From: Halorussus limi
GTDB lineage: Archaea; Halobacteriota; Halobacteria; Halobacteriales; Haladaptataceae
DNA: 64,000 nucleotides
Reading direction: 5' to 3'
NCBI RefSeq assembly: GCF_023238205.1
Contig: NZ_CP096659.1
Coordinates: forward strand, 868,001-932,000
The notes under the pieces were generated by a model. That model was given only the letters and a program-made list of their open reading frames with translations, was not told the origin of the DNA and searched no databases. Below are positions 6,383-30,919 of this stretch, one piece after another (within the stretch, counting starts at the first letter, position 1; every line of letters starts with the position of its first letter). Made by a program: the position numbers and the translations under genes.

Positions 6383-8683
6383 TCAGTCGTCGCTCTCGGC
6401 CACCGACCCGGCGGCCGAGACCGGCGCGTCGCCGGGAGCGTCGGTCGGAGTCGTCTCGCCGCGGGCCAGCACCTTCTTCACCACGTCGTAGCCGAAGATG
6501 GCGGTCCCGAGGATGACGAGCGCGTCGCCCGGCATCCGGAGCCAGAACAGCAGTTGGACGAGGTCGCCCTCGTAGAACGAGAGGCTCCGGGCGGCGTCGT
6601 AGCTCTGGGTGAACGCCACCTCCAGTTGGAGGAAGCCGACCGGGAGCAGACTGATGAGACACATCACCGCGAGGCCGACGTTCCACGCCCAGAACGCGCG
6701 CCGGAGGTTCGTTCCCGACCACTCGGCCTCGGGCACCGCGACGCGGAGCATGTACGTCACCATGCCGAGCGCGAGGAAACCGAACGCGCCGAACATCGCG
6801 GCGTGGGCGTGGGCCACCGTGAGGTAGGTGCCGTGTTCGAAGTAGTTGATGAACGGCAGGTTGATGAAGAACCCGAGGACGCCCGCCCCGACGAAGTTCC
6901 AGACGCCGCTGGCGACGATGAACATGAACGGCAGCGTGTAGGGGAACGACTCGCCGCTGCCCGACATCGCGCGGTACTGGCCGATGGCCTCGTAGAGGAT
7001 GAAGACCAGCGGGATGAGTTCGAGCGTCGAGAACGCGCTCCCGATGGGCACCCAGAAGTCGGGTTGGCCGACCCACCAGTAGTGGTGCGAGACGCCGATG
7101 ACGCCCGTCCCCATCACGAGCAGGGCTTGGACCATCACCGCCTTCTCGGCCGAGCGCTTCTTCAGCAGATTCATGCTGACCAGCGTGACGCCGACCAGCG
7201 AGACGATGAAGAACTCGAAGGCTCCCTCGACCCACATGTGGACGACCCACCAGCGCCAGAACTCCGTGACGACGATGTTGGTCTGGGGCGTGTAGAGGAA
7301 GCCCGCGGTGAACAGCAGGGCGATGGAACCGCCCGCGTACAGAATCATGTGGGCGAGGCCCCACTTGGGTTCGCGGTCGAGCAGGGGCTTGAGTCCGCGA
7401 GCCACGAGCGCGGCCCACGCGAGGAAGCCGACGAGGATACCGATCTGCCAGAGCCGACCGATTTCGAGGTACTCCAGCCCCTCGTTGCCGAGAATCCACC
7501 AGAGCGCGCCGTCGATGTACCCCTTCGCGCCGAGCCAGATGCCCGCGAGGGCACCGACCACGACCACGACGAGGACGCCGAGTAAGCGATTAATCCACGT
7601 GCCCTGCTTGCGGGGTTCGCGGCCGGTCAGCAGCGGTGGCAGGAACAGACCCGCACCGAGCCACAGCGTCGCTATCCAGAGGATGCCGAGGTCGAGGTGC
7701 CACGTCTTGGCGATGGAGAACGGGATGAGCTGGAGGAAGTTGACCCCGAGCAGTTCGCCGAGGCCGAAGAAGTCCGCCCGCTCGATGTAGTAGTGGGCGA
7801 GTAGCCCGCCGAGCAACACCTGCCCGAGGAACAGGCCCGCGCCGACGACGGCGAACCGGAGCGCCGCGGCCTGCCCGGGGAACAGGTTCACCTCGTCGGG
7901 CCGAGGCACCGTGACGCCCTCGGTTTCGGGTTCGGGCAACTCGATGGACTTGTAGAGCCAGACGCCAAATCCGGCCCCCGCGACGAGCAGTATCATGGCG
8001 ACGACGCTCCACGTCATCGCCGCGCCCGTGGCGTCGTTACCGGCCGCCGGCTGGTAGGGCCACTCGTTGGTGTAACTGTGGTCCGAGCCGGGGCGGTCGG
8101 TGTGGGAAATCCACGCGGTCCAGAGCGCGAAGTCGGCGAAGCGCCTCGCGTCCTCCTCGGACTCTATCATCCCTTCGGGGACGCCCCGCTCGTGGCTCCC
8201 CTCGTGGTAGCGCTCGACGTACACCTGCGTGACCTGCTCGTGGGCGTACGCCTCCGCGGCGGAGTATTCGACGTTCTTGCCGGGGTTGCCGTCGGTCAAG
8301 TCCGACTTCACCGCCACGTCCACGGTGGCCCGCTCGCTCTCTGAGAGGCTCCCGTAGTCGGAGGTGCCGTACTGTTCGCGGGCGTAGTACTGGCGCATGA
8401 ACTTCACCTTCAGGTCGAGCGCGTCGGCGGTGAAGTCCTCGCCGTAGTACGCGCCGTTGCCCAGTATCGACCCGTGGTTCATCAGGCCGTTCGACTGGAA
8501 AATCGTCTTTCCTTCCCGTACTTGCTCCGCGGTCACGATGGTCTGGCCGTCGGGTCCTTCGACCTCCTTCGGGATGGGCGGGGCCTCCTGATAGGAGTAC
8601 CACGCGCCGACGCCCATCACGGCCAGATTCAGGACGAAGACGACCGCGAGTATCTTGCCGAGCGTGCTGCGTTTGACTCTCAT
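6383..8683 (-). CDS. norZ: Quinol-dependent nitric oxide reductase (qNOR), single-subunit NorB/NorZ
   Basis: Integral membrane heme b enzyme reducing two NO to N2O with quinol. The 766-residue protein fuses a cytochrome-c-like N-terminal periplasmic part (GKTIFQSNGLMNHGSILGNGAYYG, no CxxCH heme c motif) to a 12-14 helix heme-copper-oxidase fold. Typical elements are HMWVEGAFEFF and AHAHAAMFGAFG. I place the start at 8683 (MRVKRSTLGKILAVV), directly ahead of the first membrane helix. The open frame extends 22 codons further, but a TATA-like TTAAAA (8711-8716) sits about 28-33 nt before this ATG, and the upstream residues look non-coding. The palindrome at 8751-8762 lies ahead of that TATA. Confidence 0.95.
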   Translation of the reverse strand: MRVKRSTLGKILAVVFVLNLAVMGVGAWYSYQEAPPIPKEVEGPDGQTIVTAEQVREGKTIFQSNGLMNHGSILGNGAYYGEDFTADALDLKVKFMRQYYAREQYGTSDYGSLSESERATVDVAVKSDLTDGNPGKNVEYSAAEAYAHEQVTQVYVERYHEGSHERGVPEGMIESEEDARRFADFALWTAWISHTDRPGSDHSYTNEWPYQPAAGNDATGAAMTWSVVAMILLVAGAGFGVWLYKSIELPEPETEGVTVPRPDEVNLFPGQAAALRFAVVGAGLFLGQVLLGGLLAHYYIERADFFGLGELLGVNFLQLIPFSIAKTWHLDLGILWIATLWLGAGLFLPPLLTGREPRKQGTWINRLLGVLVVVVVGALAGIWLGAKGYIDGALWWILGNEGLEYLEIGRLWQIGILVGFLAWAALVARGLKPLLDREPKWGLAHMILYAGGSIALLFTAGFLYTPQTNIVVTEFWRWWVVHMWVEGAFEFFIVSLVGVTLVSMNLLKKRSAEKAVMVQALLVMGTGVIGVSHHYWWVGQPDFWVPIGSAFSTLELIPLVFILYEAIGQYRAMSGSGESFPYTLPFMFIVASGVWNFVGAGVLGFFINLPFINYFEHGTYLTVAHAHAAMFGAFGFLALGMVTYMLRVAVPEAEWSGTNLRRAFWAWNVGLAVMCLISLLPVGFLQLEVAFTQSYDAARSLSFYEGDLVQLLFWLRMPGDALVILGTAIFGYDVVKKVLARGETTPTDAPGDAPVSAAGSVAESDD

Positions 8684-8710
8684 ACACGTCGAGGTTGTCC
8701 CTCGTGGGGC

Positions 8711-8716
8711 TTTTAA
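8711..8716 (-). promoter_or_regulatory. TATA-like box of norZ
   Basis: Reads TTAAAA on the minus strand, about 28-33 nt before the norZ ATG, as expected for a near-leaderless haloarchaeal transcript. Confidence 0.5.
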
Positions 8717-8750
8717 CCGGGACGCGGTTCCTGAACACTGGGAACTCACG

Positions 8751-11145: not shown

Positions 11146-12501
11146 TCACGGGAACTGCTCGTCGGGGTCGTCGGCCGCCTCGCCGGACGCGGCCGACCCG
11201 CCGAGCGCACCGATTCGGAGCGACTCCGGACCGTGGCGGACCACGACGCCGGTCAGGTTCGCGGCGAAGACGGCGAACCCGAGCGTCGCCAGCGCGCCGC
11301 CGACGAACAGCGCCGCCTCGACCCCGCCGACCTCGCCGACCAGAATCAGTCCGACGCCGCCGAGCGTGAGCCAGAAGTCCGCCGCGGCGAGGCGGTCGTC
11401 GTAGAGGTCGTCTATCATCGGCACGGGTTCGAGTCCTACTCGGTCGCTGTACCGGCGGACCCAGACGACGAACGGGACGACGTGGTAGAGCGTCCCCAGC
11501 AGGACGAACCCGACCGCACCGGCGGCGAGCAGGTGGCCGACCGCGGGGTGGCCGAACGTCGTCGCGGGGTCGGCCGGGCGCGAGAGCCACGACGGGAGCG
11601 CCGCGAGCGCCCACGCCGGAACCGCCGCCGCGACCACCGCGTACCGCGACAGCATCGGCGTCCGCTCGACTCTCGTCTCCCAGAGCTTCCGGGCGAGGAC
11701 CGCCGCGAACGCGAGCAGGCCCGCCAGCGCGAGGAGCGCGCCGATTCGAGCGACCCGCTCGGCACCGACCAGTCGCCCGGCGGCGAGCGCGACGACCCCC
11801 GGGGGATACGCCCACTCCTCGACGCGCCGGAGCGTCGCGTCCGCGCCGCGAATCTCAGTCTGGGTGAACATCGTGGCGAGTTGGTAGAGCGCGCCCACGA
11901 CGGTCGTGAGGACGACGCCGAACACCGCGAGCGTGGCGTGGGCCGCGACGACCTGCGAGCGGACCAGACCCGCCGGGGCCAGCGTCGGCCGGACGAAGTC
12001 GAGCGCGAGCGCGAATCCGAGCGTCGTCACGAGCAGGACGTAGCCGAGCGCGAGCGCGAAGTGGCGCTCGGTGGTGTCGAAGTCGCCCGCCCGCGAGAGC
12101 GTCCGGCCGACGTTGTAGACGAAGGTCCAGAACCCCGCGAGCATCGCCGCGCCCGCGACCGGCAGGAGGTCGAGCCGCCCCGACAGGAGCAGGCCCGCGA
12201 ACCCCGCGACCCCGCCGCCGACGAGCGCGAGTTGCGCGAGCGCGAGTCGCCGCGAGTGGAGTTCGACGCCCGACCAGACCGGCACGAACTGGGTCATCGC
12301 GCCAAGAATCGTGAGACAGACCCACCCCACGAGCAGGAGGTGGACGTGGGCCGGTCCAGAGAGACCCGGCGCGAGGCCGACGACGCCGAGGACCCCGAGT
12401 GCCGCGCCCGCCAGCAGGAAGGCGAACCCCGCGAGGAAGTGCGCGAGCGGAATCGCCATCGGCGGGCCGCGGTCGGCGTCGATGCCCGCGGGGACGCTCA
12501 T
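11146..12501 (-). CDS. Polytopic membrane protein related to heme-copper oxidase subunit I / NnrS-type proteins
   Basis: 451-residue protein of about 11-12 hydrophobic helices with no soluble domain. Histidines placed in helices (PAHVHLLLVGWVCLTILG, AAHATLAVFG, TLYHVVPFVVW) recall the CcoN/NorB fold and the NnrS family, but the full catalytic histidine set is not obvious. The ATG at 12501 overlaps the stop of the upstream DUF2249 gene (ATGA), indicating translational coupling. The pairing with DUF2249 and a molybdate-type binding protein, divergent from nar, suggests a role in NO handling or electron transfer. I would not call it an oxidase. Confidence in membrane nature is high; in family, moderate. 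Confidence 0.6.
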   Translation of the reverse strand: MSVPAGIDADRGPPMAIPLAHFLAGFAFLLAGAALGVLGVVGLAPGLSGPAHVHLLLVGWVCLTILGAMTQFVPVWSGVELHSRRLALAQLALVGGGVAGFAGLLLSGRLDLLPVAGAAMLAGFWTFVYNVGRTLSRAGDFDTTERHFALALGYVLLVTTLGFALALDFVRPTLAPAGLVRSQVVAAHATLAVFGVVLTTVVGALYQLATMFTQTEIRGADATLRRVEEWAYPPGVVALAAGRLVGAERVARIGALLALAGLLAFAAVLARKLWETRVERTPMLSRYAVVAAAVPAWALAALPSWLSRPADPATTFGHPAVGHLLAAGAVGFVLLGTLYHVVPFVVWVRRYSDRVGLEPVPMIDDLYDDRLAAADFWLTLGGVGLILVGEVGGVEAALFVGGALATLGFAVFAANLTGVVVRHGPESLRIGALGGSAASGEAADDPDEQFP

Positions 12502-12728
12502 CGCGGTTCTATCTCCACCCGCCACTCGTCGGGGGCGACCCGCTCGGTCTCGTGGTCGAAACCGCGCCGGTCGAGCACCGCGTAGAGCGGTTCGGGTTCG
12601 AAGCTGTTGACGAGGACCAGCGTCTCGTCGTCGCCGAGGTCGTCGAGCGCCGACGTGATGGCCCCGAACGGTTCACCGTCGATTTCCCGTGCGTCGAGTT
12701 CGCGCGTGGACTGAGTGTCGTGGCTCAT
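12498..12728 (-). CDS. DUF2249 domain protein
   Basis: 76-residue DUF2249 protein: RELDAREIDGEPFGAI followed by the core LVLVNSFEPEPLYAVL, where the usual N-D-H is N-S-F. The ATG at 12728 is preferred to the longer frame because the palindrome centre is then exactly 44.5 nt upstream, as at five other genes. It is coupled by a 4-bp overlap to the membrane protein gene downstream and follows the binding-protein gene by 25 bp. Second DUF2249 unit of the window. Confidence 0.85.
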   Translation of the reverse strand: MSHDTQSTRELDAREIDGEPFGAITSALDDLGDDETLVLVNSFEPEPLYAVLDRRGFDHETERVAPDEWRVEIEPR

Positions 12729-13773: not shown

Positions 13774-16700
13774 GTGTATGACGCGAGTAACCACTCGAAC
13801 GACGACGGGCGGTGGTTCGCGGTGAGCCTCTCACGTCGCGACTTCATCCGCGGTGCCGGGACGGGAGCGGTCGGCGCGCTCCTGACCAGCGGTTGGGGCG
13901 CGACCCAGAGCGTCGACCCCGTGACCGACGTGAAGAACCCGCTCAAGTCCTACCCGAACCGGGACTGGGAGCAGGTCTACCGCGACATCTACGCCTACGA
14001 CGACGTGGACTGGACGGTGTGTCACCCCAACTGCACTCAGTCGTGCGCCCTGAACTTTTACATGAAGAACGGGGTGCCGATTCGGGCCGAACAGGTGTAT
14101 CACAACGAGAAGCCGAGCGTCGGTCCCTCGGGCTACGAGGACGCGAACGTCAGCCAGAACTGGAACCCCCGCGGGTGCATGAAGGGACTGACGCTCCACC
14201 GCCGGACCTTCGAACCGAGTCGCATCAAGTACCCGATGGTCCGGAAGGGCTGGTCGCCCGACGACCCCAACCCGGAGGGCCGGGGCGAAGACGAGTTCGA
14301 GCGCGTCTCGTGGGAGAAGGCCGTGGACCTCGTCGCCGAGAAGATGGCGAGTCTGGACGACAACAAGCGGTTCCACATCTTCAACGCCATCAAGGCCGAC
14401 GGCCTCATCACGCGCCACGGCGCGGGACGGCGACTCGCCTCCATCTTCGGAGGCTGTGAGTGGACCGAGTACGACTGGTACGCCGACCTACCGCCGGGCC
14501 ACGTCATCACGACGGGCTACCAGACCAGCGACTCGGACGCCAACGCGTGGCGGAAGGGCGACTACACCATCATTCAGGGGAAGAACCTCATCCACAACAA
14601 ACTCGCGGACAACCACTGGTTGCAGGAGTCCCGCGAGCGCGAGGGGAAGATGGTCGGCATCTACCCCGACTACTCGCCGACCGTCCAGAAGTGCGACCGG
14701 TGGCTCCCCATCCGACCCGGGAGCGACCCGGCGATTCCGCTCGGGTTCGCCCACGTCATCATCCGCGACGAACTGTACGACGCCGACTTCATGCGGAAGT
14801 TCACCAGTCTGCCCCTGCTGGTGCGGTCGGACGACGACAAGTACCTCCGGGCCCACGAGGTGTTCTCCGACCGCGAACCGCCCGCCGAGGGCGACGAACA
14901 CGACTGGGGCGACTTCGTGGTCTTGGACCGGAACGGGAACCCGAAAGCCGTCACGCGCGAGCAGGTCGGCGACGAGATGCCCGTCACCCCGAAACTAGAG
15001 GCCGAGACCGAGGTGTCGCTGGCCGACGGCGGGTCGGTCTCGGTCCGGACCGACTTCTCGCGCCAGAAGCAGAACGTGATGGAGAACTACTCGCCGAAAC
15101 AGGTCGAGGAGATAACCACGGTACCTGCGGACGGCATCGAGAAGACCGCCAAGGAGTTCGCGGCCGCCGAGAAGGGCCAGTGGTTCACCGGCGAGGGCAT
15201 CAACCACTGGTTCCACGGAAACAGCGAACTCCAGCGCTCCATCTTCTTCGTCCAGTCGATGCTCGGCAACGTCGGCGACGCCGGGAAGGGCTACTACAAC
15301 TACTCGGGCCAGTACAAAATCGAGTTGCTGGACGGCTACCCCCACTACGTCAACCCGGACGGCCACTCGGCCCACGGGATGTATCCGGGGTACGCCTTCG
15401 CGTTCTTCGGCGGCGAGCAGTTGGACCCCCACGAGATACGGGGCGACTTCGACCGGGAGATGGACCTCGTCCCGCAGGGCGACGCCGAGCAGCCGGTGAT
15501 GCCGAAGGGCGCGGAGTCGTACACGATGTCCAAGCCCACGATTCTGTGGACGATGAACTGCAACCTCCTGAACCAGACCAAACATCAGGAGCACGTGGTC
15601 AACAACTTCACGAAGCATCCCGACACGAGCAACGAACTGTTCGTCGTGTCGGACATGCACATGACCTACTCGGCGCAACACGCCGACATCGTGTTGCCCT
15701 GTCCCTCGTGGCTGGAGTGTGACTACCCCGACATCACTGTCGGCCCGGAGAACCCCTTCGTCACGATGGACAGCGGGGTGATGGACCCCATCTACGACAC
15801 GAAGCAGGACGGCGAGGTGCTGGCGATGGTCGCCGAGAAGTTGGACGAGAAGATTCCGCCCGAGGAGCGCAACGTCGATTCGTATCGGTCGTACTTCTCG
15901 GAGTTCCTCGACGACGACGGCGACGTGCGCAAGTACATCCAAGAGACGCTGGACGCGGGCATCACGACCCAAGACATCGACGTGAAGGACCTCGAAGACG
16001 GTCCCGAGCGCCTCGACCTCAAGACGTACCCGCGCATCCCGTTCTACTCCCAGATTCACGACGACCGACCGTTCTACACCAAGACCGGCCGCATGGAGTT
16101 CCACAAGGAGGAAGACCGGTTCATCGACCTCGGGCGCGACGACTTGGACCACATCGAGAGCGTCGAGGGGACGCCCTACGGCGTCAACCAGAAGTGGCCC
16201 GAGGCGGGCGAGGAGGAGAACCCCCTCTACCACGACGAGGGCTACCAGTTCTACTACAACACGCCCCACAGCAAGTACCGGACCCACTCCTCGTGGGGGA
16301 TGACCGACTGGAACCTCATCTGGTCGTCGCGGGACTTCGGGTCGACCAGCGCCGACCCCGAGGGCACCGAGCGCCTGATTGACGACTTCTCGTTCCCCGA
16401 GGCCGAGGGCGAGACCAGCGAGGCCCCGCCGCTGGGCGAGGCGTTCGTGGAGATACACCCGAGCGACGCCGAGCAAATCGGCGTGGAGAACGGCGACTAC
16501 GTGCGAATCAAGGGCAAGCGCGGCGGGACGGTGGTCAGGGCCATGCTCAGCGAGCGCCAGCGCCCCGGCAAGGCGGGCGACATGGGCCAGTTGACCCTCT
16601 GGCACGGCTGGTGGCCCCAGCACTTCCCGGACGACGAGGAGAAAGACGACGACGAGGTGAAGGGGTTCAACACGACGACGAACATCTGGCTTGACCCCGG

Positions 16701-17007
16701 TCAGGAGACCGACGAACTCGTCCACAAGGCGGTGTTCGGCGACCCGAACGTCTCCGAGAAGGTGGGCGAGGACATCGCGTGGCACGGCGCGGAACTCGAA
16801 CACGGCTACGAGGAGACCGTCTGGGCACCGACCGGGGTGAACCGCGACGACCTCGTGACCGTCGAGAAGTACGAAGAGGCCGACTGGTGGCCCGGCGACG
16901 CCCGGAAGGACGAACTCGTCTCCGACTACATCGGCGGGTCGCTCCAGTCGAAGGGCGGCGGTAGCGGGACGACCGGCGGCAGCGCGACGACGCGAGGTGA
17001 CGACTGA
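13774..17007 (+). CDS. narG: Respiratory nitrate reductase, catalytic subunit
   Basis: Mo-bisMGD enzyme reducing nitrate to nitrite. In haloarchaea it is exported by Tat and faces outward. The 1077-residue protein has a twin-arginine signal at residues 20-40 (SRRDFIRGAGTG), then the FS0 [4Fe-4S] ligand set H84-x2-C87-x3-C91 and C135 (HPNCTQSC, PRGC), where the first ligand is a His as in NarG rather than a Cys. The TSDSDANAW segment (251-259) aligns with the region of the Mo-ligating Asp of NarG. The ATG at 13774 is listed; a GTG at 13822 immediately before the Tat motif is an alternative. The stop overlaps the narH start (TGATG). First gene of a seven-gene operon. Confidence 0.95.
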   Translation: MYDASNHSNDDGRWFAVSLSRRDFIRGAGTGAVGALLTSGWGATQSVDPVTDVKNPLKSYPNRDWEQVYRDIYAYDDVDWTVCHPNCTQSCALNFYMKNGVPIRAEQVYHNEKPSVGPSGYEDANVSQNWNPRGCMKGLTLHRRTFEPSRIKYPMVRKGWSPDDPNPEGRGEDEFERVSWEKAVDLVAEKMASLDDNKRFHIFNAIKADGLITRHGAGRRLASIFGGCEWTEYDWYADLPPGHVITTGYQTSDSDANAWRKGDYTIIQGKNLIHNKLADNHWLQESREREGKMVGIYPDYSPTVQKCDRWLPIRPGSDPAIPLGFAHVIIRDELYDADFMRKFTSLPLLVRSDDDKYLRAHEVFSDREPPAEGDEHDWGDFVVLDRNGNPKAVTREQVGDEMPVTPKLEAETEVSLADGGSVSVRTDFSRQKQNVMENYSPKQVEEITTVPADGIEKTAKEFAAAEKGQWFTGEGINHWFHGNSELQRSIFFVQSMLGNVGDAGKGYYNYSGQYKIELLDGYPHYVNPDGHSAHGMYPGYAFAFFGGEQLDPHEIRGDFDREMDLVPQGDAEQPVMPKGAESYTMSKPTILWTMNCNLLNQTKHQEHVVNNFTKHPDTSNELFVVSDMHMTYSAQHADIVLPCPSWLECDYPDITVGPENPFVTMDSGVMDPIYDTKQDGEVLAMVAEKLDEKIPPEERNVDSYRSYFSEFLDDDGDVRKYIQETLDAGITTQDIDVKDLEDGPERLDLKTYPRIPFYSQIHDDRPFYTKTGRMEFHKEEDRFIDLGRDDLDHIESVEGTPYGVNQKWPEAGEEENPLYHDEGYQFYYNTPHSKYRTHSSWGMTDWNLIWSSRDFGSTSADPEGTERLIDDFSFPEAEGETSEAPPLGEAFVEIHPSDAEQIGVENGDYVRIKGKRGGTVVRAMLSERQRPGKAGDMGQLTLWHGWWPQHFPDDEEKDDDEVKGFNTTTNIWLDPGQETDELVHKAVFGDPNVSEKVGEDIAWHGAELEHGYEETVWAPTGVNRDDLVTVEKYEEADWWPGDARKDELVSDYIGGSLQSKGGGSGTTGGSATTRGDD

Positions 17008-18188
17008 TGCCAGAAGTGTACAATCCGCAACTCGGCCGCAAGCAGAGCTACCCCTACGAGCATCGCCAGCAGGAACGCGACTGGCACTGGGGGATGGTCA
17101 TCAACACGAATCGGTGCATCAACTGCAACACCTGCTCGTTCGCCTGCAAGTCCACGTGGACCAGCGGGAAGGGCGAGGAGTACATGTGGTGGATGAACGT
17201 CGAGACCGAACCCTACGGGGGCTACCCGATGGGGTGGGACATGCGCCTGCTCGACGACCTCGGTGCCGAGGAGACCATCTTCGAGGCCGCCGAGCAGGGC
17301 GAGAAGGTCAAGGGGTACGTCGCCCAGAAGGAGGAGTGGGAGTATCCCGCCTTGGGCGACGACTCGGTTCACGGCGAGTATCCCGAGGACGAGGTGGTCG
17401 AGTCCGACCCCGAGAAAGGCAAGTACCACGACATCTGGCAGTTCTACCTGCCGCGCCTCTGCAACCACTGTAAGAACCCGGCCTGCCTCGCCGCGTGCCC
17501 CCGGAAGGCCATCTACAAGCGCTCGGAGGACGGCATCGTCCTGCTCGACCAGGAGCGCTGTCGGGGGTACCGCAAGTGCGTGAAGGCGTGTCCCTACCAC
17601 AAGCCGATGTACAACCCCGAGACCGGCGTCTCCGAGAAGCCGGTCGGCTGTTTCCCCCGCATCGAGGAGGGCAACGTCCCCCGGTGCGTGAGCAGTTGCA
17701 TCGGGAAGACGCGACTCCACGGCAACATCAACCGCGGGCCGAAGGCGGGCCACCCCAACGGGAAGAAGTCGGCGGCGAAGGGCCGCAGTCCCATCAACTA
17801 CCTCGCCAAGTCCGACGAGAAGGTCGCGCTCCCGCTCTACCCGCAGTTCGGCACCCGGCCGCAGGTGTTCTACATGCCGCCGTACCACGTGCCGCCGGAG
17901 TTCCTGACCCAGATGTTCACGCCGAACACCGAGCAGAAGCGCAACGACTGGCCCGGCAGCACCTACGAGGAGTCGGTCAAAATCATCCAGCAGCGCGTCC
18001 GAAATCCGAGCCACCACCTGCTGGGCGTGCTCCAGTTGTTCGGCGCGACGACCCGACTCATCGAGACGTACAACGTCAAGGAGAACCGCGTGAAGGGCTG
18101 GGACCGCAAAGGAAAGAAAGTCGTGGACATGCCCATCGAGGAGGACATCGAGGTCCGCGAGGGCGAGAAGTGGACCAACCAACCGTGA
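17007..18188 (+). CDS. narH: Respiratory nitrate reductase, iron-sulfur subunit
   Basis: Electron-transfer subunit that carries electrons to NarG. The 393-residue protein has four cysteine groups: CINCNTCSFAC near residue 37, CNHCKNPACLAACP, CRGYRKCVKACP and a final CFPRI..RCVSSC. These match NarH, with three [4Fe-4S] clusters and one [3Fe-4S] cluster; in the third group the second ligand position is a Tyr (GYRK) where a Cys would be in a normal ferredoxin motif. It has no signal of its own, so it should ride with NarG through Tat. The ATG overlaps the narG stop. Confidence 0.95.
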   Translation: MPEVYNPQLGRKQSYPYEHRQQERDWHWGMVINTNRCINCNTCSFACKSTWTSGKGEEYMWWMNVETEPYGGYPMGWDMRLLDDLGAEETIFEAAEQGEKVKGYVAQKEEWEYPALGDDSVHGEYPEDEVVESDPEKGKYHDIWQFYLPRLCNHCKNPACLAACPRKAIYKRSEDGIVLLDQERCRGYRKCVKACPYHKPMYNPETGVSEKPVGCFPRIEEGNVPRCVSSCIGKTRLHGNINRGPKAGHPNGKKSAAKGRSPINYLAKSDEKVALPLYPQFGTRPQVFYMPPYHVPPEFLTQMFTPNTEQKRNDWPGSTYEESVKIIQQRVRNPSHHLLGVLQLFGATTRLIETYNVKENRVKGWDRKGKKVVDMPIEEDIEVREGEKWTNQP

Positions 18189-18197
18189 GGTGACAGC

Positions 18198-18992
18198 ATG
18201 GACGACATAACCCCAACGGACGACGCGACTTCAGACGCCGACGCCGGACCGCGAGCGGAGCGCCACGCGGCCCGCGCGGCCCTCTACAGCGCCGCGGCGG
18301 GGGCGTTCTGCTACCCCGACGACGAACTGGTCGCGGACCTGACCCACGCCGAGACCGCCGAGGGCCTCCGGTCGGCCGCCGAGACCCTCGACCTGCAATC
18401 GGAAGTCGAGACCTTCCTCGGGGCGCTCGAATCGACCGACCGCGACGACCTCGAATCGGCGTACAACGGCCTGTTCGGTCTGCCGAGCGACGACGGCACC
18501 TACCCCGTGGTGCCCTACGAGGCCGAGTACACGGTCGGCGACGAGGTGGGCCGCCAGCAGCGCCGCATCGCCACCGTGGTCGGCCTGCTCGAAGCGTTCG
18601 GCGTCGAACCGTCCGACCGGTTCGACGAGCGCCAAGACCACGTGGTCGTGGAACTCGAACTGCTACAGGTCCTCGCGGCGCGACGGGCGGTCGCCCGCGA
18701 GGAGGGAGACGACGACACCGCGGCCAACCTCGAACGCGCCGAGGCGATGGTGCTGGACGAACACCTCGGGGACTTCGTGCCCGCGTTCGCCCACGAGGTC
18801 CGGAAGTCCGCGCCCGACCCTGACGAGACGGGAACCGACGCCGACCCGGGCGAGGAGGACGACCTCGGCGCGGCCGCAGTCTATCGCGCGGCCGCGGACC
18901 TCGCGGAGACCGTCGTCACCCGCGACGTGGCCAATCACCCGGAACCCGATGTGGACTTCGACGGGTCGTCGGAGGTGAGAAGTCGTGGCTGA
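18198..18992 (+). CDS. narJ: Nitrate reductase assembly chaperone, NarJ/TorD family
   Basis: 264-residue acidic helical protein of the TorD/DmsD/NarJ chaperone family, expected to hold NarG in the cytosol until cofactor insertion and Tat export. Visible elements are an N-terminal ARAALYSAAAGAFCYPDDELVADL helix pair, the LFGLPSDDGTYPVVPYEAEYT segment (family E-x-x-Y around the ligand groove) and DERQDHVVVELELLQVLAAR. The C-terminus is extended by an Asp/Glu-rich loop. Its stop overlaps the GTG of the next gene by 8 bp. Confidence 0.88.
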   Translation: MDDITPTDDATSDADAGPRAERHAARAALYSAAAGAFCYPDDELVADLTHAETAEGLRSAAETLDLQSEVETFLGALESTDRDDLESAYNGLFGLPSDDGTYPVVPYEAEYTVGDEVGRQQRRIATVVGLLEAFGVEPSDRFDERQDHVVVELELLQVLAARRAVAREEGDDDTAANLERAEAMVLDEHLGDFVPAFAHEVRKSAPDPDETGTDADPGEEDDLGAAAVYRAAADLAETVVTRDVANHPEPDVDFDGSSEVRSRG

Positions 18993-19992
18993 CCGGGACG
19001 CCGCGCGGCGCGCGACCGTCGTCACGGCGGTGGTCGTGGCTACGCTGGTCGTCGCCCAGACCGCGGTGACCGCCGCGGTCACGAGCGGGACGCAACCGGC
19101 GATGTCGGTCGAGTCGGTGCCCGAGGACCCGACCGCCGCGACGTGGCAGGACGCGCCGACCCGGACCGTTTCGCTGTCGAAACAGCAGATGGCCCCGCCG
19201 TTCGGCGGCGGAAGCACCGACGAGGTGCGGGTCCAGACGGTCCACAACGACACGCACACCGCGTTCAGACTGACGTGGGAGGACCCGACTCGCGACGCCA
19301 ACATCCGCGCGCCGGAGAACTACAGCGACGCCGCCGCGGTGATGCTCCGGACCGGCGACCAGCCGCCCATCACGATGGGCGCGGCGGGCAAGCCCGTGGA
19401 CATCTGGTACTGGCGCGCGAGTTGGCAGTTCGAGAATCACTCGGCGTTCGGCGAGATGTACACCTACCCGCACCCGAACAACGAGACGATGCCGGGGCGG
19501 GCCGCCGGGAATCCGCTCTCGAAGTCCCAGTACGAGCGGTTCGCCCAGAACTACTACGCGAAGGGGTACGGGTCGCTGACACACGCGCCGCGCCAGAACG
19601 TCCGGGCGCGCGCCGAGTACGGAGACGGCGAGTGGTCGGTCGTCTTCACCCGGAAGCACGACACCGAGGGGAAGTTCGACGCGTCGTTCTCCGGGTCGAA
19701 GAAGGTGTATCTGGCGTTCGCGGTCTGGAACGGGAGCGCCGACGAGGTCAACGGCCAGAAGTCGCTCTCGCTCCAGTTCACCCAACTGAACACCCAGAAG
19801 TGGGCGATGTCCGACGCGAGTAGCGGGTCGAGCGACTCGGGAAGCGGACAGTCGGCCGGCGAGTCCTCCGGGACCAGTTCGGGCCAGAGCGACGGGCCGT
19901 GGATAGTCCGGTCGGTCGGCAACTGGGTCGGCGGACTCGTGGTGACGACCCTGCTGACGTGGACCGTCGTCTACTGGAGGGCCAGAGAATGA
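18985..19992 (+). CDS. Heme b-binding subunit of nitrate reductase-like complex (ethylbenzene dehydrogenase gamma-like)
   Basis: 335-residue exported protein with an N-terminal hydrophobic signal (about 8-32) and a C-terminal helix (about 310-330, GGLVVTTLLTWTVVYW) that would anchor it outside the membrane. The soluble domain resembles the EB_dh/DMSO-reductase-gamma heme b domain: VHNDTHTAFRLTWEDPTRD, then VDIWYWRASWQ, with Met and Lys/His candidates for axial ligands. It would pass electrons to NarH in place of NarI. A Ser/Gly-rich linker precedes the anchor. The GTG start at 18985 overlaps narJ. No NarI, Rieske or cytochrome b gene lies nearby. Confidence 0.75.
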   Translation: MADRDAARRATVVTAVVVATLVVAQTAVTAAVTSGTQPAMSVESVPEDPTAATWQDAPTRTVSLSKQQMAPPFGGGSTDEVRVQTVHNDTHTAFRLTWEDPTRDANIRAPENYSDAAAVMLRTGDQPPITMGAAGKPVDIWYWRASWQFENHSAFGEMYTYPHPNNETMPGRAAGNPLSKSQYERFAQNYYAKGYGSLTHAPRQNVRARAEYGDGEWSVVFTRKHDTEGKFDASFSGSKKVYLAFAVWNGSADEVNGQKSLSLQFTQLNTQKWAMSDASSGSSDSGSGQSAGESSGTSSGQSDGPWIVRSVGNWVGGLVVTTLLTWTVVYWRARE

Positions 19993-20945
19993 GCGAGCAG
20001 TACAAAAACCGGAGCGCCCGCGCTCGGTCGCCGACCCGCGACGGCGGCGACGAGACCGACCTCCGGAGACTGCTCGACTCGCCCGACGAGTACGAGCGAC
20101 GAGACGCCGCGCTCGCGCTGGTTGACGCGGCCGAATCCGCGGGAATCGACGACGAAACCGCGAGCGCGCTCGCCGACCGCCTCGCCGAGGGCGACAGCGA
20201 GGACGTGCGACAGTTCGCGGTCGAAGCGCTGGGCGTGGCCGGCCCCGACGCGCCGGCCGACGCCGTGACCGCCATACGAGACGCGCTCGACGCGGACGAC
20301 GACGAGTGGGTTCGGGCGGAGGCCGTGGTCGCGCTCTCGCGGGTCGCGCCCCGCGCCGACGAACTGGCCGCCGCGCTCGAAGACGACAGCGGGTGGGTCC
20401 GCCGGAACGCGGTCATCGCGCTCGGCAAGACCGAGCGCGCGACCTTCGGCGACCTGACCGACCGCATCAAGAACGACCCCCATCCCGCGGTCCGGGAGTA
20501 CGCCGCGCGCTACCTCGGCGAGTGCGCCGAGAGGGCGGACGCAGACGCCGAGGACGCGCCCGGCGGAGACGAGTCGGTGAGCGAAGCGGTCCGCCTGCTG
20601 GCGGCAGTGCTGGCCCGCGACCCCGAGGCGTTCGTCCGGGCGAAGGCCGCCGAGTCGCTCGGCGGTCTCGCCACCGACCGGGCCGAGCGAGCGCTCGAAA
20701 CACACGGCGTCACCGACCGGAGCGACGACGTGAAGCGGACCGCCAAGCGCGCGCTGGCCGCGGCCCGCGGCGTGGACCCCGACCAGTTGGACGTGGAGAT
20801 AGACGACGGGCCGCCCGGCGGCGGGCCGCAAGCGCCCGGCGAGACGCCGGGCGGGCCTGGACCGACCGGCGGTCCCGAGAACAGACCGACGGGCGGCCCC
20901 GGCGGACGACCCGGAGGACCCCCGAACGACCCGACCGAGAGGTGA
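19989..20945 (+). CDS. HEAT-repeat protein of the nar operon
   Basis: 318-residue acidic protein made of about five HEAT/PBS-lyase-like helical repeats (YERRDAALALVDAAES, EDVRQFAVEALGVAGP, EWVRAEAVVALSRVAP, GWVRRNAVIALGKTE, HPAVREYAARYLGECA, AFVRAKAAESLGGLA). A disordered Gly/Pro tail (GGPGPTGGPENRP and similar) follows. There are no membrane or export signals, so it is cytosolic. The ATG overlaps the previous stop (ATGA). HEAT proteins usually act as scaffolds; here the likely partners are NarGH or the assembly factors NarJ and Mrp. It is not a standard nar gene outside haloarchaea. Confidence 0.8.
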   Translation: MSEQYKNRSARARSPTRDGGDETDLRRLLDSPDEYERRDAALALVDAAESAGIDDETASALADRLAEGDSEDVRQFAVEALGVAGPDAPADAVTAIRDALDADDDEWVRAEAVVALSRVAPRADELAAALEDDSGWVRRNAVIALGKTERATFGDLTDRIKNDPHPAVREYAARYLGECAERADADAEDAPGGDESVSEAVRLLAAVLARDPEAFVRAKAAESLGGLATDRAERALETHGVTDRSDDVKRTAKRALAAARGVDPDQLDVEIDDGPPGGGPQAPGETPGGPGPTGGPENRPTGGPGGRPGGPPNDPTER

Positions 20946-21530: not shown

Positions 21531-22895
21531 ATGACCGACGACACAGACGAGATTACGGCCCGAGTCGAGGAGGCGATAGCGAGCGTCGAGGACCCCGACT
21601 TCGGCGCGAGCGCGCTCGACGCCGGACTCGTGACCGGCGTGGAAGTCGCGGACGGCGCGGCGACGATTTCGGTGGACCTCGCGGGCGCCGACCCCGAGGC
21701 CGCCGAGGAGGTCACGGAGGCGCTCCGGCGCGAGGCGTTCGAGGTCGCCGGAATCGAGAAGGTCCGCGTCGAGAGCGAGACGCCCGACGGTGGCGGCACC
21801 CACGCCGGCAGCGCGGAGGGTGGCGGTGACGCACACGGCGACACACACGATGCCGGCGGCGCGCACGGCGGCCTCTCGCTCCCGGAAATCGACCACGTAA
21901 TCGCGGTCGGGAGCGCGAAGGGCGGGGTCGGCAAGACCACCGTGGCGACCCACCTCGCCCGCGCGCTGGCCGACGACTACGACGTCGGCCTGTTCGACGC
22001 CGACATCCACGGGCCGAACGTGCCCGAGATGGTCGGCGTCGAGGGACCGGTCGAGGCCACCGACGACGGGCGGGCCGCGCCCGCCGAGGTCGGCGGAATG
22101 GAGGTCATGAGCGTCGGCCTGATAGCCAACGACGCGCCGCTGGCGTGGCGGGGCGCGATGGCCCACGACGCGCTGACCGAACTGCTCGAAGACACCGAGT
22201 GGTCCGACCGGGACGTGCTGGTCGTTGACCTGCCGCCGGGGACCGGTGACGTGGTGCTGACGATGCTTCAGGAGGTGCCGGTCACGGGGTCGGTGCTGGT
22301 GACGACGCCGTTCCCGACGAGTCTCTCGGACACCGGCCGGAGCGCCGCGCTACTGGAGGAGAACGGCGTCCCGGTCGTGGGTGCGGCGGTGAACATGCAC
22401 GGGTTCGTCTGCGAGAACTGCGGCCACGACCACGACCTCTACGGCGAGAGCGACCCCGAGGAGGAGTTGGGCGTCGATGTGCTGGCCGAACTCCCGTTCG
22501 ACCGCGGGTTGCAGAACCCCGGCGAATCCGGCGAGGGCGAGCGTTCGGACGCCGAGCGGCCCGACGCCGCGACTCCCGACCCCGTCGCAGACCTCGCGGA
22601 GTCGGTCGGCGAGTTCGTGGAGAGCGACGACGCCGGGCCGGTGTCGGTCCCCGACTCGGCGCTCGACGTTCGGGGACTCCCGCCCCGCATCCGCCACGAG
22701 CAGGTCGGCGAGGAGTTCGCGGCGTTGGACCCCGGCGAGGAGTTCTACGTCGTGAACGACCACGACCCCTCGCCGCTGGCCCAGATGCTCGCCGGGGAGT
22801 TCGCCGAGGAGTCGGCCGACGAGGCGTTCGAGACCTGCGAGGTCCACCGCCGCGCGCCGGACGAGTGGGTGCTGGAACTCCAGCGAGCGGTCTGA
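21531..22895 (+). CDS. Mrp/ApbC-type Fe-S carrier ATPase fused to MIP18-like and DUF2249 domains
   Basis: 454-residue cytosolic protein with three parts. Residues about 5-85 are a MIP18/DUF59-type domain (ASVEDPDFGASALDAG). Residues about 120-340 are a Mrp/Nbp35 P-loop ATPase with deviant Walker A SAKGGVGKTT, DADIHGPNVPEM, VVDLPPGTGDVVLTML and the CENCGHDH cluster-binding CxxC. Residues about 375-454 are a full DUF2249 domain (LDVRGLPPRIRHEQ, VNDHDPSPLAQML). A His/Gly/Asp linker (GGDAHGDTHDAGGAHGG) follows the first part and may bind metal. As last gene of the nar operon it probably delivers [4Fe-4S] clusters to NarGH. The DUF2249 fusion is the best functional hint for that family in this window. 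Confidence 0.88.
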   Translation: MTDDTDEITARVEEAIASVEDPDFGASALDAGLVTGVEVADGAATISVDLAGADPEAAEEVTEALRREAFEVAGIEKVRVESETPDGGGTHAGSAEGGGDAHGDTHDAGGAHGGLSLPEIDHVIAVGSAKGGVGKTTVATHLARALADDYDVGLFDADIHGPNVPEMVGVEGPVEATDDGRAAPAEVGGMEVMSVGLIANDAPLAWRGAMAHDALTELLEDTEWSDRDVLVVDLPPGTGDVVLTMLQEVPVTGSVLVTTPFPTSLSDTGRSAALLEENGVPVVGAAVNMHGFVCENCGHDHDLYGESDPEEELGVDVLAELPFDRGLQNPGESGEGERSDAERPDAATPDPVADLAESVGEFVESDDAGPVSVPDSALDVRGLPPRIRHEQVGEEFAALDPGEEFYVVNDHDPSPLAQMLAGEFAEESADEAFETCEVHRRAPDEWVLELQRAV

Positions 22896-23650: not shown

Positions 23651-24244
23651 TCAGAACGGGAGCGACGAACTGTCGGCGTCGTCGGCAGGCCCGCGACTCC
23701 GCTCGCCGCTCTCTCGGGAGCGTTCGGGACTCTCGACAGTTCCGTCGTCGTCGAGTCGCCGTTCCATGTTCCGCAACTTCTCGTTGATGTCCGTGCTCTC
23801 GTGGTGTATCGGCGCGACGGCCACCGAGACGCGGTCGAAGCCGTGGCGGTCGCTCAGGCCGTTCCACGCGCGGAACGCCCCGACCGTGAGGGTGTCGCTC
23901 TGGGGACAGAACTCGGTGGTCGGCGTGAACTCCGCGAGCAATACGTCCTCGTCGGCGCCGTCGCCGTCCGGCGCGCGGGCGTACCGCCACCCGGCGTCGG
24001 GGTGTCGGGAGTCGAGGTTGAGTCGCGCGAGGTTGTACCCGAAGGTAGCGTCGTAGACTCCCCGCTCCTCGAAGATGTCGCGGGTGAGGCGGTGGAACGC
24101 GCAGTGTTCCTCGCCGGTCAGCACGTCGGCACCCCGGAGGAACTGACCGGGGTCGGGCAGGTGGTCCGGTCGGAACTCGTCGTACTCGTCGAACGTCTCC
24201 TCGTCGGCGTCGTCGCCGGCGAACGGTCGCGGGATTCCGGGCAT
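23651..24244 (-). CDS. Conserved haloarchaeal protein with CPQS motif (possibly DUF7998), MIP18-like
   Basis: 197-residue soluble protein of a haloarchaeal family. I recall the label DUF7998 but cannot verify it. Conserved-looking blocks are TGEEHCAFHRLTRDIFEE, FGYNLARLNLDSRHP, EFTPTTEFCPQSDTLTVG and VSVAVAPIHHES. The TPTT-x-FCPQ-x-x-TL block followed by a V-x-V-x-VAP strand resembles the T-x-x-CP motif of MIP18/SufT/PaaD Fe-S proteins, an inference from pattern only. The C-terminal 35 residues are charged and disordered. The ATG at 24244 has a perfect 16-bp palindrome centred 44.5 nt upstream, shared divergently with halocyanin, which puts it in the denitrification regulon. Confidence 0.72.
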   Translation of the reverse strand: MPGIPRPFAGDDADEETFDEYDEFRPDHLPDPGQFLRGADVLTGEEHCAFHRLTRDIFEERGVYDATFGYNLARLNLDSRHPDAGWRYARAPDGDGADEDVLLAEFTPTTEFCPQSDTLTVGAFRAWNGLSDRHGFDRVSVAVAPIHHESTDINEKLRNMERRLDDDGTVESPERSRESGERSRGPADDADSSSLPF

Positions 24245-24282
24245 GTGCGTATCTACCGCCGAGCGGCGGGTATCCGTGACCC

Positions 24283-24294
24283 CGAACGCGTTCG
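24283..24294. promoter_or_regulatory. CGAAC-N2-GTTCG palindrome, divergent halocyanin / CPQS protein
   Basis: CGAACGCGTTCG within a perfect 16-bp palindrome (24281-24296, CCCGAACGCGTTCGGG). The centre is 44.5 nt before the ATG at 24244 and 75.5 nt before the halocyanin ATG at 24364. Halocyanin also has a TATA-like TTTATG (24333-24338) about 28 nt before its start. Confidence 0.75.
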
Positions 24295-24363
24295 GGTGCC
24301 GTTTTCACCGACTGGGAATCAGGGCCACCGCCATTTATGTAGCCCTCGAAGGTGGAAACGAAG

Positions 24364-24876
24364 ATGAATCGAGATACTCTCGACCGACGGACGATGCTGA
24401 AGACGATGGCCGCAGGCGCAGCGACCGCGACGATTGCCGGCTGTTCGAGCGGCGGTGGCGGCGACGGCGGGTCGGGCGACTCCGGCGGCGACGGCGGTGA
24501 CTCGGGAAGCGGCGGCTCCGGGAGCAGTTCGGTCAGTTTCGACGGGTGGTTCGACAACACCAGCAACTACGACGGCGTGGTCGACAAGACCGGGAGCAGC
24601 GAGGTGACGGTGAAGGTCGGCGCGAAGGGCAACGGCGGCAACTACGCCTTCGGTCCGGCCGCGGTCAAGGTGTCGAAGGGGACGAAGGTCGTCTGGGGGT
24701 GGACCGGCAAGGGGGCGCTCCACAACGTCGTCGCCGACAACGGCGACTTCGAGAGCAAGCAGAAACAGGAGGCGGGATACACCTTCTCCCACACGTTCGA
24801 CAGCGCCGGGAAGCACAAGTACTACTGCACGCCCCACAAGGCGATGGGCATGAAGGGCGCAATCGTCGTGGAGTAA
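24364..24876 (+). CDS. Halocyanin (type 1 blue copper protein)
   Basis: Small membrane-attached electron carrier, 170 residues. The signal has a Tat-like RR (LDRRTMLKTMAAG) and lipobox (IAGC), so it should be a lipoprotein. A Gly/Ser/Asp linker (about residues 27-55) leads to one cupredoxin domain with ligands His (ALHNVVAD), Cys and His (YYCTPH) and Met (MGMKG). The ATG at 24364 is preferred to the GTG at 24352: a GGTGG lies 8 nt before it and a TATA-like box about 28 nt before it. It is the likely electron donor to NirK and perhaps the nitrate reductase, and shares a palindrome with its divergent neighbour. Confidence 0.93.
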   Translation: MNRDTLDRRTMLKTMAAGAATATIAGCSSGGGGDGGSGDSGGDGGDSGSGGSGSSSVSFDGWFDNTSNYDGVVDKTGSSEVTVKVGAKGNGGNYAFGPAAVKVSKGTKVVWGWTGKGALHNVVADNGDFESKQKQEAGYTFSHTFDSAGKHKYYCTPHKAMGMKGAIVVE

Positions 24877-24885
24877 CTCCCCGCC

Positions 24886-26025
24886 ATGTCGAACCCATCG
24901 AATCGTTCCGGCGGGCCGCCGCGACGGGTCGACACCGACGAGCGACCCTTCGTCCTCATCTGGGAGTTGACGCAGGCCTGCGACCTGACCTGCGAACACT
25001 GCCGGGCCGACGCCCAACCCGACCGCCGCCCCGACGAACTCACGACCGAGGAGGCGAAGACGCTCCTCGACCGGACCCGCGAGTTCGGCGAGGACCAGTT
25101 GGTCGTGTTCTCGGGCGGCGACCCGCTGAAGCGCGACGACGCCGTGGACCTCGTCGAGTACGGCACGGAAATCGGTCTCAACGTGACGATGACCCCGAGC
25201 GGGACCGCCTCGCTGACCCCCGACGCCGTGGCCGACCTCGCGGACGCGGGCCTGCGCCGGATGGCGGTCAGCGTCGACGGCGCGAACGCCGAGCGCCACG
25301 ACGACTTCCGGGGCGAAGCCGGGAGTTTCGAGGAGACGGTGTCGGCCGCCCAGTCCGCGACGAGCAACGGTCTCCCGCTACAGGTCAACACCACGGTCTG
25401 TCGCCAGACCGTCGCGGACCTGCCCGACATCGCCGACCTCGTGGCGGACCTCGGCGCGGTCCTCTGGAGCGTCTTCTTCCTCGTGCCGGTGGGCCGGGGC
25501 GCGGCGCTCGACCCGCTGTCACCCGAGCGCGCCGAACGTGTGATGGAGTGGCTGGTCGACCGGAGCGACGAGTGGCCCTTCGGCCTGAAGACGACCGAAG
25601 CGCCCCACTACCGTCGGGTCGCCGTCCAGCGGACCGACCAGCCTCCGAACCGCCAGATGGGCATCACCGCGGGCGACGGCTTCGCCTTCGTGAGCCACGT
25701 CGGCGAGGTCTACCCCTCCGGGTTCCTGCCCGAGTCGGCGGGCAACGTCCGCGACCGGAGCGTCGTGGACATCTACCGGAACGCGGACCTGTTCGAGGAC
25801 CTGCGCGACGGGGACGCGCTCCGCGGGAAGTGCGGGGCCTGCCCCTACCGGAACGTCTGCGGCGGCAGTCGCTCGCGGGCCTACGCCACGACCGGCGACC
25901 CGCTGGAGAGCGACCCGCTCTGCTCGTTCGTCCCGGAGGGCTACGACGGCCCGCTCCCGTGGGACGACGCCAGTCCGCACGTCGAACCGACTCCCGAACC
26001 CAGTCCCGCGGCGAACTCCCGGTGA
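24886..26025 (+). CDS. Radical SAM/SPASM protein (TIGR04053-like, related to AhbC/AhbD/NirJ heme enzymes)
   Basis: 379-residue cytosolic radical SAM enzyme. The N-terminal cluster motif CDLTCEHC (C-x3-C-x2-C) follows VLIWELTQA. Next come the SAM-contact GGDPL and the SPASM domain with CGACPYRNVCGGSRSRAYA and a final Cys (DPLCSF). The RSRAYA pattern is characteristic of the heme-biosynthesis branch (AhbC, AhbD, NirJ) and TIGR04053. The start codon lies 9 bp after halocyanin, so co-transcription is likely. In haloarchaea heme is made from siroheme by Ahb enzymes, so a role in heme supply for NorZ and the nar heme subunit is plausible. Peptide modification is the alternative. Confidence 0.82.
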   Translation: MSNPSNRSGGPPRRVDTDERPFVLIWELTQACDLTCEHCRADAQPDRRPDELTTEEAKTLLDRTREFGEDQLVVFSGGDPLKRDDAVDLVEYGTEIGLNVTMTPSGTASLTPDAVADLADAGLRRMAVSVDGANAERHDDFRGEAGSFEETVSAAQSATSNGLPLQVNTTVCRQTVADLPDIADLVADLGAVLWSVFFLVPVGRGAALDPLSPERAERVMEWLVDRSDEWPFGLKTTEAPHYRRVAVQRTDQPPNRQMGITAGDGFAFVSHVGEVYPSGFLPESAGNVRDRSVVDIYRNADLFEDLRDGDALRGKCGACPYRNVCGGSRSRAYATTGDPLESDPLCSFVPEGYDGPLPWDDASPHVEPTPEPSPAANSR

Positions 26026-29888: not shown

Positions 29889-30512
29889 CTACCCGTCCAC
29901 GTACTCCTTGACGATTTTCTCCTCGACCCGGTGGAGGGTCTCGCTCGCGGTCGATTTCGCCACGCCCGCCACCTCCGCGAGTTCGGTCAGCGAACACTCC
30001 CGCGGGGTGTCGTAGTACCCCTCCTCGACCGCCGTGTGGAGGAGTTCGCGCTGGCGCTGGGTCAGCAGACTCTCGGAGTTTATCATCTCGCGGACGTACT
30101 CCACGTCGAACTCCATCCCGAACGCGCGCAGTTGCGTGGTGAACGCCGACAGTCGGTCGCGCGAGGCGGTGAGTTCGACCGACGCCCGCCCGTCGCGGAT
30201 GGTGAATGGCAGTTCCAGCGGGAGGCCCGACTCCTGGACCGAGAACAGCAGGAGCGGCGCGGTCGTCTCGAACTCCACGAGCGCGGACTCCTCGGACGCC
30301 TGCTGGAGGTCGAGGCGAGTGATGTCCTCGCGTTCGTCCATCGCGGCCACGACCGCCGGGAGGTCGTCGGCCGAGATTTCGAGCAGGCCGACGCCGGTGT
30401 CCTCGGCCGGGAAGGCCGCGAGGACGCGGAACTCGGCGTCCGGGTGCGCCGTCGAGACCTCCGAAATCCACACGTCTTCGGGGAGCGTGATGTGCAGTTT
30501 CGCGGTTGGCAT
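29889..30512 (-). CDS. BAT-type (HTH-10) transcription regulator, candidate regulon controller
   Basis: 207-residue regulator of the bacterio-opsin-activator family. The N-terminal two thirds form the family's ligand-sensing region; the C-terminal HTH-10 domain is visible in LTQRQRELLHTAVEEGYYD, then SLTELAEVAGVAKSTASETLHRVEE. NarO and DmsR, the known activators of anaerobic respiration in haloarchaea, belong to this family. This protein has a single Cys (PRECSL), so a cysteine-based cluster or redox sensor is not apparent. The start at 30512 (MPTAKLHITLPEDVW) has a palindrome centred 48.5 nt upstream, implying autoregulation or control by a paralogue. It is divergent from a DUF2249 gene with its own palindrome. 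Confidence 0.85.
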   Translation of the reverse strand: MPTAKLHITLPEDVWISEVSTAHPDAEFRVLAAFPAEDTGVGLLEISADDLPAVVAAMDEREDITRLDLQQASEESALVEFETTAPLLLFSVQESGLPLELPFTIRDGRASVELTASRDRLSAFTTQLRAFGMEFDVEYVREMINSESLLTQRQRELLHTAVEEGYYDTPRECSLTELAEVAGVAKSTASETLHRVEEKIVKEYVDG

Positions 30513-30554: not shown

Positions 30555-30566
30555 CGAACACGTTCG
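30555..30566. promoter_or_regulatory. CGAAC-N2-GTTCG palindrome upstream of HTH-10 regulator
   Basis: CGAACACGTTCG within a 16-bp palindrome CCCGAAC..GTTCGGG (30553-30568), centred 48.5 nt before the regulator ATG. A GACTTATCC TATA-like stretch lies between. Confidence 0.72.
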
Positions 30567-30596
30567 GGTCTGGCGGGGAGACGCCGGTCTCCGGTG

Positions 30597-30608
30597 CGAA
30601 CGTATTCG
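30597..30608. promoter_or_regulatory. Near-palindrome CGAAC-N2-ATTCG upstream of DUF2249
   Basis: CGAACGTATTCG, one mismatch in the arms, with its centre 44.5 nt before the ATG at 30647. Confidence 0.62.
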
Positions 30609-30646
30609 GGACAAACCCCGTGGCGACGGGCCCCGTCGTCGATAGT

Positions 30647-30919
30647 ATGCAGACCCGCTTCACCGAGCGAGCGGTCGAACGCACCGACGCCCCGGCCGAC
30701 AGACCGCGCGATGGCCTCGACGTTCGGGAACTCGGGCCGCCGAAACCGCTGACCCGGACGCTCGAAACGCTGGCGGACCTCGACGCCGAGACCGTCCTCG
30801 TGCAGGCCAACGACCGGGCGCCCCAGCACCTCTATCCGAAACTCGACGACAGAGGGTACGAGTTCGAGACCGTCACCGACGACGAGGTCGTCCTGACCGC
30901 AATCTGGCGCGAGGAGTAG
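30647..30919 (+). CDS. DUF2249 domain protein
   Basis: 90-residue DUF2249 protein with an N-terminal extension of about 25 residues (TERAVERTDAPADRP). The domain shows LDVRELGPPKPLTRTL and the core LVQANDRAPQHLYPKL, where the usual D-H-x-P-x-P is degenerate. The ATG at 30647 is supported by the 44.5 nt palindrome spacing. Fourth DUF2249 unit, divergent from the HTH-10 regulator. Confidence 0.83.
   Translation: MQTRFTERAVERTDAPADRPRDGLDVRELGPPKPLTRTLETLADLDAETVLVQANDRAPQHLYPKLDDRGYEFETVTDDEVVLTAIWREE

Follow-up and report, generated by a model that had tools for sequence, protein, structure and literature searches.

The gene, its family, and the surrounding island

The window analyzed here, a 64,000-nucleotide stretch of DNA from Halorussus limi, is a denitrification island. 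It carries nirK for a copper nitrite reductase (5144–6208, minus strand; TIGR02376, E = 1e-136), a gene for the quinol-type nitric oxide reductase qNor (6383–8749, minus strand; PF22085 plus PF00115), and narG, narH, and narJ (13774–18992, plus strand), together with several DUF2249 genes, a halocyanin gene, a TIGR04053 radical SAM gene, and a gene for an HTH_10 regulator. The gene at 23651–24244 (minus strand, ATG start), hereafter called the target, encodes a 197-amino acid MIP18-like protein whose family has no name. Because full-length homologues are found at 50 to 80% identity, we take the target to be a real gene. Homologues are present in 254 of 391 Halobacteria genomes, and in other genera the gene has similar denitrification neighbors. 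The family is confined to haloarchaea, in that 393 sampled genomes of the phylum gave matches only inside one order. The target is labeled hypothetical in other records, including plasmid records, as is the COX1-like membrane protein described below.

An alignment of 27 family members contains 43 invariant columns. Among the invariant residues are H47, H51, D65, H81, C113, H134, and H147, and the block VYDxTFxYNLAxLN and the C-terminal residues P196-F197 are also kept. A preliminary description of this locus had drawn attention to two sequence elements, both of which are present as quoted: EFTPTTEFCPQSDTLTVG, which spans residues 105 to 122 (23879–23932, minus strand), contains Cys113, and is invariant across the family, and VSVAVAPIHHES, a strand and loop at residues 139 to 150 (23795–23830, minus strand) that contains His147. 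That account had also proposed additional conserved His and Cys residues, which holds for histidine, with five invariant positions, but not for cysteine, since C48 varies and C113 is the sole invariant Cys. The C-terminal Pro-Phe (23654–23659, minus strand) ends 68 of 70 distinct members and follows a disordered, acidic, variable tail for which pLDDT falls below 50 in the full-length AlphaFold model. This arrangement resembles a docking peptide. We rejected the possibility that it is the targeting signal of the CIA pathway, because the [ATVSLI]-P-F ending of the family differs from the C-terminal [LIM]-[DES]-[WF] tripeptide that defines the CIA TCR signal (PMC10623007).

A gene for an Mrp/NUBPL carrier (21531–22895, plus strand) encodes an N-terminal PF01883 (MIP18) domain and a C-terminal DUF2249 domain, and it is in this neighboring protein, not in the target, that the curated MIP18 domain of the island sits. 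Its counterpart in Haloferax mediterranei, E6P09_17415, is described in a published study as induced in denitrification (PMC11218638). A gene for a HEAT-repeat protein (19899–20945, plus strand) adjoins the carrier gene near narGHJ, and the HEAT-repeat protein, the Mrp carrier, and the target together recall the CIA set of MMS19, NBP35, and CIAO2. Only two relatives, both of them Halorussus (loci L042 and L043), have a HEAT gene close to the target. The TIGR04053 radical SAM gene (24886–26025) stands beside the halocyanin gene, and in related loci a gene annotated for a CGCGG-type putative rSAM-modified peptide is located near the target (for example, 9736–10041 in L150).

The halocyanin gene (24364–24876, plus strand; TIGR03102, E = 4e-44; alternative GTG start at 24352) diverges from the target. 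As described previously, a perfect 16-bp palindrome is common to the two genes: CCCGAACGCGTTCGGG, a NarO/denitrification motif, lies between them at 24281–24296. The pattern CGAANNNNTTCG (CGAA-N4-TTCG) occurs 14 times in the window versus 2.7 times expected, a count that none of 100 shuffles reached. Among 69 distinct upstream regions, 52 have it at −50/−49 relative to the target ATG, and most of the remaining ones contain a degenerate version, with one or two mismatches, at about −50. The operator matches the denitrification motif CGAAYATDKTYG of H. mediterranei, which PMC11218638 credits to earlier NarO work. This match and the fixed position across the family strongly support the proposed regulon membership of the target, and we regard its place in the denitrification regulon as close to certain. 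A position at −50, just upstream of the archaeal core promoter, would be the expected placement for an activator site.

The halocyanin gene adjoins the target in only 3 of 28 loci, for which reason we rejected halocyanin as the key partner. Because the distance between operator and target is fixed even where halocyanin is not a neighbor, the palindrome belongs first to the target promoter, and halocyanin in this window may share it. The gene for the HTH_10 regulator, which is of the bacterio-opsin activator/NarO type (29889–30512, minus strand; PF04967, E = 1.5e-18), has two palindromes upstream (at 30555 and 30597) within the interval 30555–30608, between it and a DUF2249 gene (30620–30919). 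The positions of these sites suggest that the NarO-like regulator controls its own gene.

Co-occurrence with a COX1-like membrane protein

Of all neighbors of the target, the commonest is a relative of the gene at 11146–12525 (minus strand), found in 20 of 28 loci; that gene encodes a COX1-like membrane protein whose family is unclassified. This protein matches PF00115 only marginally (35.5 bits versus a cut-off of 34.8) and has no NCBIfam model. It has about 11 predicted membrane spans and the invariant histidines H29, H62, H155, H196, H348, and H431. At four loci the genes share a strand and are separated by 54 to 73 bp, and at some loci they apparently form one operon. They also recur jointly on haloarchaeal megaplasmids.

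The COX1-like gene is a near-obligate genomic partner of the target, being found in 53 of 56 target-positive versus 2 of 62 target-negative genomes, in a survey that used one query at E = 1e-20, such that diverged copies could escape, and that sampled related genomes with a target-positive set that was not random. Of 40 genomes that have the target without qNor, 37 carry the gene, as do all 16 that have both. It was found in 1 of 40 genomes with neither, where the single match is a 93-residue fragment, and in 1 of 22 genomes with qNor but without the target, this genome being fragmented and 87% complete. The three target-positive genomes that lack the COX1-like gene all carry defective target copies: an in-frame deletion takes out the VYDMTFGY block in G062, and the target is truncated at its N terminus in G227 and at its C terminus in G214. 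We consider it very probable that the target and the COX1-like protein are a functional pair.

The link of the target to the COX1-like protein is far closer than its link to qNor or to NarJ-type chaperones. Target and qNor are both present in 185 genomes, the target alone in 66, qNor alone in 22, and neither in 118, giving an odds ratio of 15, although a Fisher test overstates the significance of such co-occurrence because the genomes are related. For NarJ/TorD-type chaperones the co-occurrence is weak (odds ratio 2.8), and the Fe-S/Mo enzymes NarGH were accordingly lowered as candidate clients of the target. Candidacy of qNor or NirK was likewise lowered, as some genomes have the target but not these enzymes and some have qNor but not the target.

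A different account of these patterns is general Fe-S repair under nitrosative stress, wherein the target and the Mrp-DUF2249 carrier would rebuild NO-damaged clusters in the cytoplasm and the link to the COX1-like protein would arise only through a common response to NO. MIP18/SufT proteins do act in Fe-S maturation (PMC11838916), a carrier with both MIP18 and DUF2249 domains is encoded in the same island, and the target follows the nitrite and NO steps (qNor, and NirK in 24 of 40 target-positive versus 1 of 40 target-negative genomes) more than it follows the NarJ/TorD-type chaperones. We nevertheless judge this account rather unlikely: the link to the COX1-like protein is tighter than that to qNor, the COX1-like gene is also missing from 21 of the 22 genomes that have qNor without the target, and only 4 of 28 loci have the Mrp gene close to the target.

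A probable remote relationship to MIP18 proteins

The preliminary description had likened the target to MIP18-family Fe-S assembly factors and had proposed a profile search against MIP18 families and a comparison of predicted folds as checks. The profile search did not bear out the resemblance, as no model matches the target. None of the 27 family members matches PF01883 at E ≤ 10, and Pfam and NCBIfam searches with the same members up to E = 10 returned nothing beyond chance matches to one member. For the target itself, searches of Pfam and NCBIfam and phmmer/hmmsearch runs against the PDB gave no meaningful match, and the PDB profile search recovered no MIP18 chain. The PDB sequence matches that did appear were set aside as chance (a designed repeat protein).

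Profile–profile comparison gave a different picture. By using hhalign, the core of the target was aligned to a SufT/PaaD-type profile with a probability of 80.9%, and to a profile that also included CIAO2A/B sequences drawn from PDB matches with a probability of 93.5% (score 45.3), with Cys113 falling on the MIP18 cysteine. The latter value depends on the combined profile, since CIAO2 alone (two sequences) yields 3% and Mrp-type MIP18 domains yield 0.3%. Scores did not exceed 17.6 for 300 column shuffles, 31.7 for 200 shuffles of ten-column blocks, or 23.5 for 31 unrelated neighbor families used as decoys (probability ≤ 4.5%).

The alignment pairs the first conserved element with the SufT/CIAO2 Cys motif, and the conserved cysteine of the TxxxCP-type motif after the central strand corresponds to C113, invariant in TPTTEFCPQ. 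The second element is paired with the GTHASE loop of CIAO2, such that HHxSxxINxKL of the target, with its invariant H147, aligns with GTHASE...VNKQL, for which hhalign to CIAO2 alone again gives 3%. The DPE loop that follows helix 1 and serves as a MIP18/DUF59 signature is not kept; only D65 persists, and VYDMTF stands in its place.

AlphaFold models were obtained for the full-length protein (pLDDT 74, pTM 0.72) and for its core (pLDDT 82, pTM 0.81). When the core model was compared with 350,542 PDB chains by Foldseek, Rv1466, CIAO2A, or CIAO2B occupied ranks 1, 2, 4, 5, 7, and 8, with Rv1466 as the best-ranked match (E = 0.018–0.15; TM-scores about 0.35–0.41). With the full model, MIP18 proteins took ranks 2 to 6 and 8. 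The fold comparison places MIP18 proteins on top but with weak E-values: across both models these matches have E-values of 0.018 to 0.19, never below 0.018, and TM-scores of 0.2 to 0.4.

The claimed resemblance therefore stands in part: it is upheld by the profile–profile scores relative to their controls and by the predicted fold, and it is not reflected in any Pfam or NCBIfam match among the 27 members. Given the missing library matches and Foldseek E-values of at least 0.018, the relationship is distant and unproven. Remote homology to MIP18 proteins nevertheless appears likely to us, and the models support, without proving, a MIP18-like fold. We do not assign the target to the MIP18 family, because it neither matches the Pfam model nor retains the DPE loop. 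It represents a new family, which is probably a divergent offshoot of the MIP18 type.

Convergence offers another explanation, in which the target has some other α/β fold and shares the FTPTxxxCP loop with MIP18 proteins by chance. The silence of the curated libraries and the weak Foldseek E-values are consistent with this, and intact ten-column blocks alone reach hhalign probabilities of 62 to 71%, which indicates that much of the signal comes from the motif. The full collinear alignment, however, outscores all shuffles and decoys, and in both fold searches MIP18 proteins are overrepresented among the best matches. We consider convergence unlikely.

In the hhalign alignment, the target is collinear with CIAO2A and CIAO2B of the eukaryotic CIA pathway, which are among its top fold matches, over FTPTxxxC and the helix, strand, His-containing loop, and N-x-x-L helix that follow it. 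It differs from them in being only about 11 to 22% identical, outside the reach of sequence-profile detection, and in having an extra N-terminal helix with an invariant HxxxH and the long acidic tail ending in PF. The Cys-Pro motif occupies the same place as in SufT/PaaD-type DUF59 proteins such as Rv1466 (PF01883), whereas the DPE loop is lost except for D65 and, by this comparison, the five invariant histidines are not found in SufT. Mrp/ApbC-type carriers with MIP18 and DUF2249 domains share the island with the target but are P-loop NTPases with a curated MIP18 domain, whereas the target has no NTPase and its hhalign comparison with them is negative.

A candidate role in metal-cofactor handling

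The regulon site, the MIP18 likeness, and the pairing with the COX1-like protein mark the target as a promising candidate for a helper dedicated to a metal cofactor. We propose that it would assist haloarchaeal nitrite/NO respiration as an accessory protein in the cytoplasm. The NarO-type palindrome at −50 would control its expression, its fold would be a strongly diverged MIP18 (DUF59/SufT/CIAO2)-like one, and it would work with the COX1-like membrane protein that is nearly always encoded in the same genome. Its most likely task would be the loading or repair of a metal cofactor, either in that protein or in its direct redox partners. Cys113, which falls on the active position of MIP18 proteins, and the nearby His147 would handle the metal, and the C-terminal Pro-Phe tail may dock the target to its partner. 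The preliminary suggestion that the target may be a new factor for assembly or metal handling in denitrification is narrowed by its close link to the COX1-like protein. Involvement in metal or Fe-S handling seems to us an evenly balanced prospect, and the whole reading, of a NarO-type-regulated MIP18-like accessory factor for assembly or repair of a metal cofactor in the COX1-like protein, is offered tentatively, at somewhat below an even chance. Of its parts, the analysis establishes the gene, where its operator lies, the denitrification surroundings, the co-occurrence, and the invariant features of the family; metal handling, the identity of the client, and docking by the tail are inferred.

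The target might instead carry no metal and, as a sensor or adaptor, use its Pro-Phe tail to regulate or anchor the COX1-like protein. Its almost one-to-one pairing with a membrane protein would suit such a role, as would the conserved terminus behind a variable disordered tail, which is typical of a docking peptide. Set against this, the invariant C113 and five invariant histidines suggest chemistry rather than docking alone, and we find a metal-free role quite unlikely. Least probable, and in our estimation very doubtful, is a CIA-like metallocofactor module dedicated to denitrification, in which the target as a stand-alone CIAO2-like protein with its own C-terminal docking peptide, the Mrp-MIP18-DUF2249 carrier, and, in Halorussus, the HEAT-repeat protein would serve the COX1-like protein as a new membrane component of nitrite/NO respiration.

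The proposed accessory role can be set beside the NarO-type regulon of Haloferax, which has the same operator (motif CGAAYATDKTYG) and the same clustering of nirK, nor, nar, halocyanin, and DUF2249 genes, but whose account in the main text of PMC11218638 does not discuss the target or its COX1-like partner. To the extent of the literature searched, the partnership is previously unreported.

To our knowledge, the assembly and protection of metal cofactors during denitrification in archaea are little understood. The MIP18-like and COX1-like proteins offer a testable pair that occurs in well over half of the sampled Halobacteria and that is annotated only as hypothetical. If the relation to MIP18 proteins is true, the target would be an archaeal representative, dedicated to one pathway, of a family known for its general role in Fe-S maturation, and it could reveal how such factors choose their clients.
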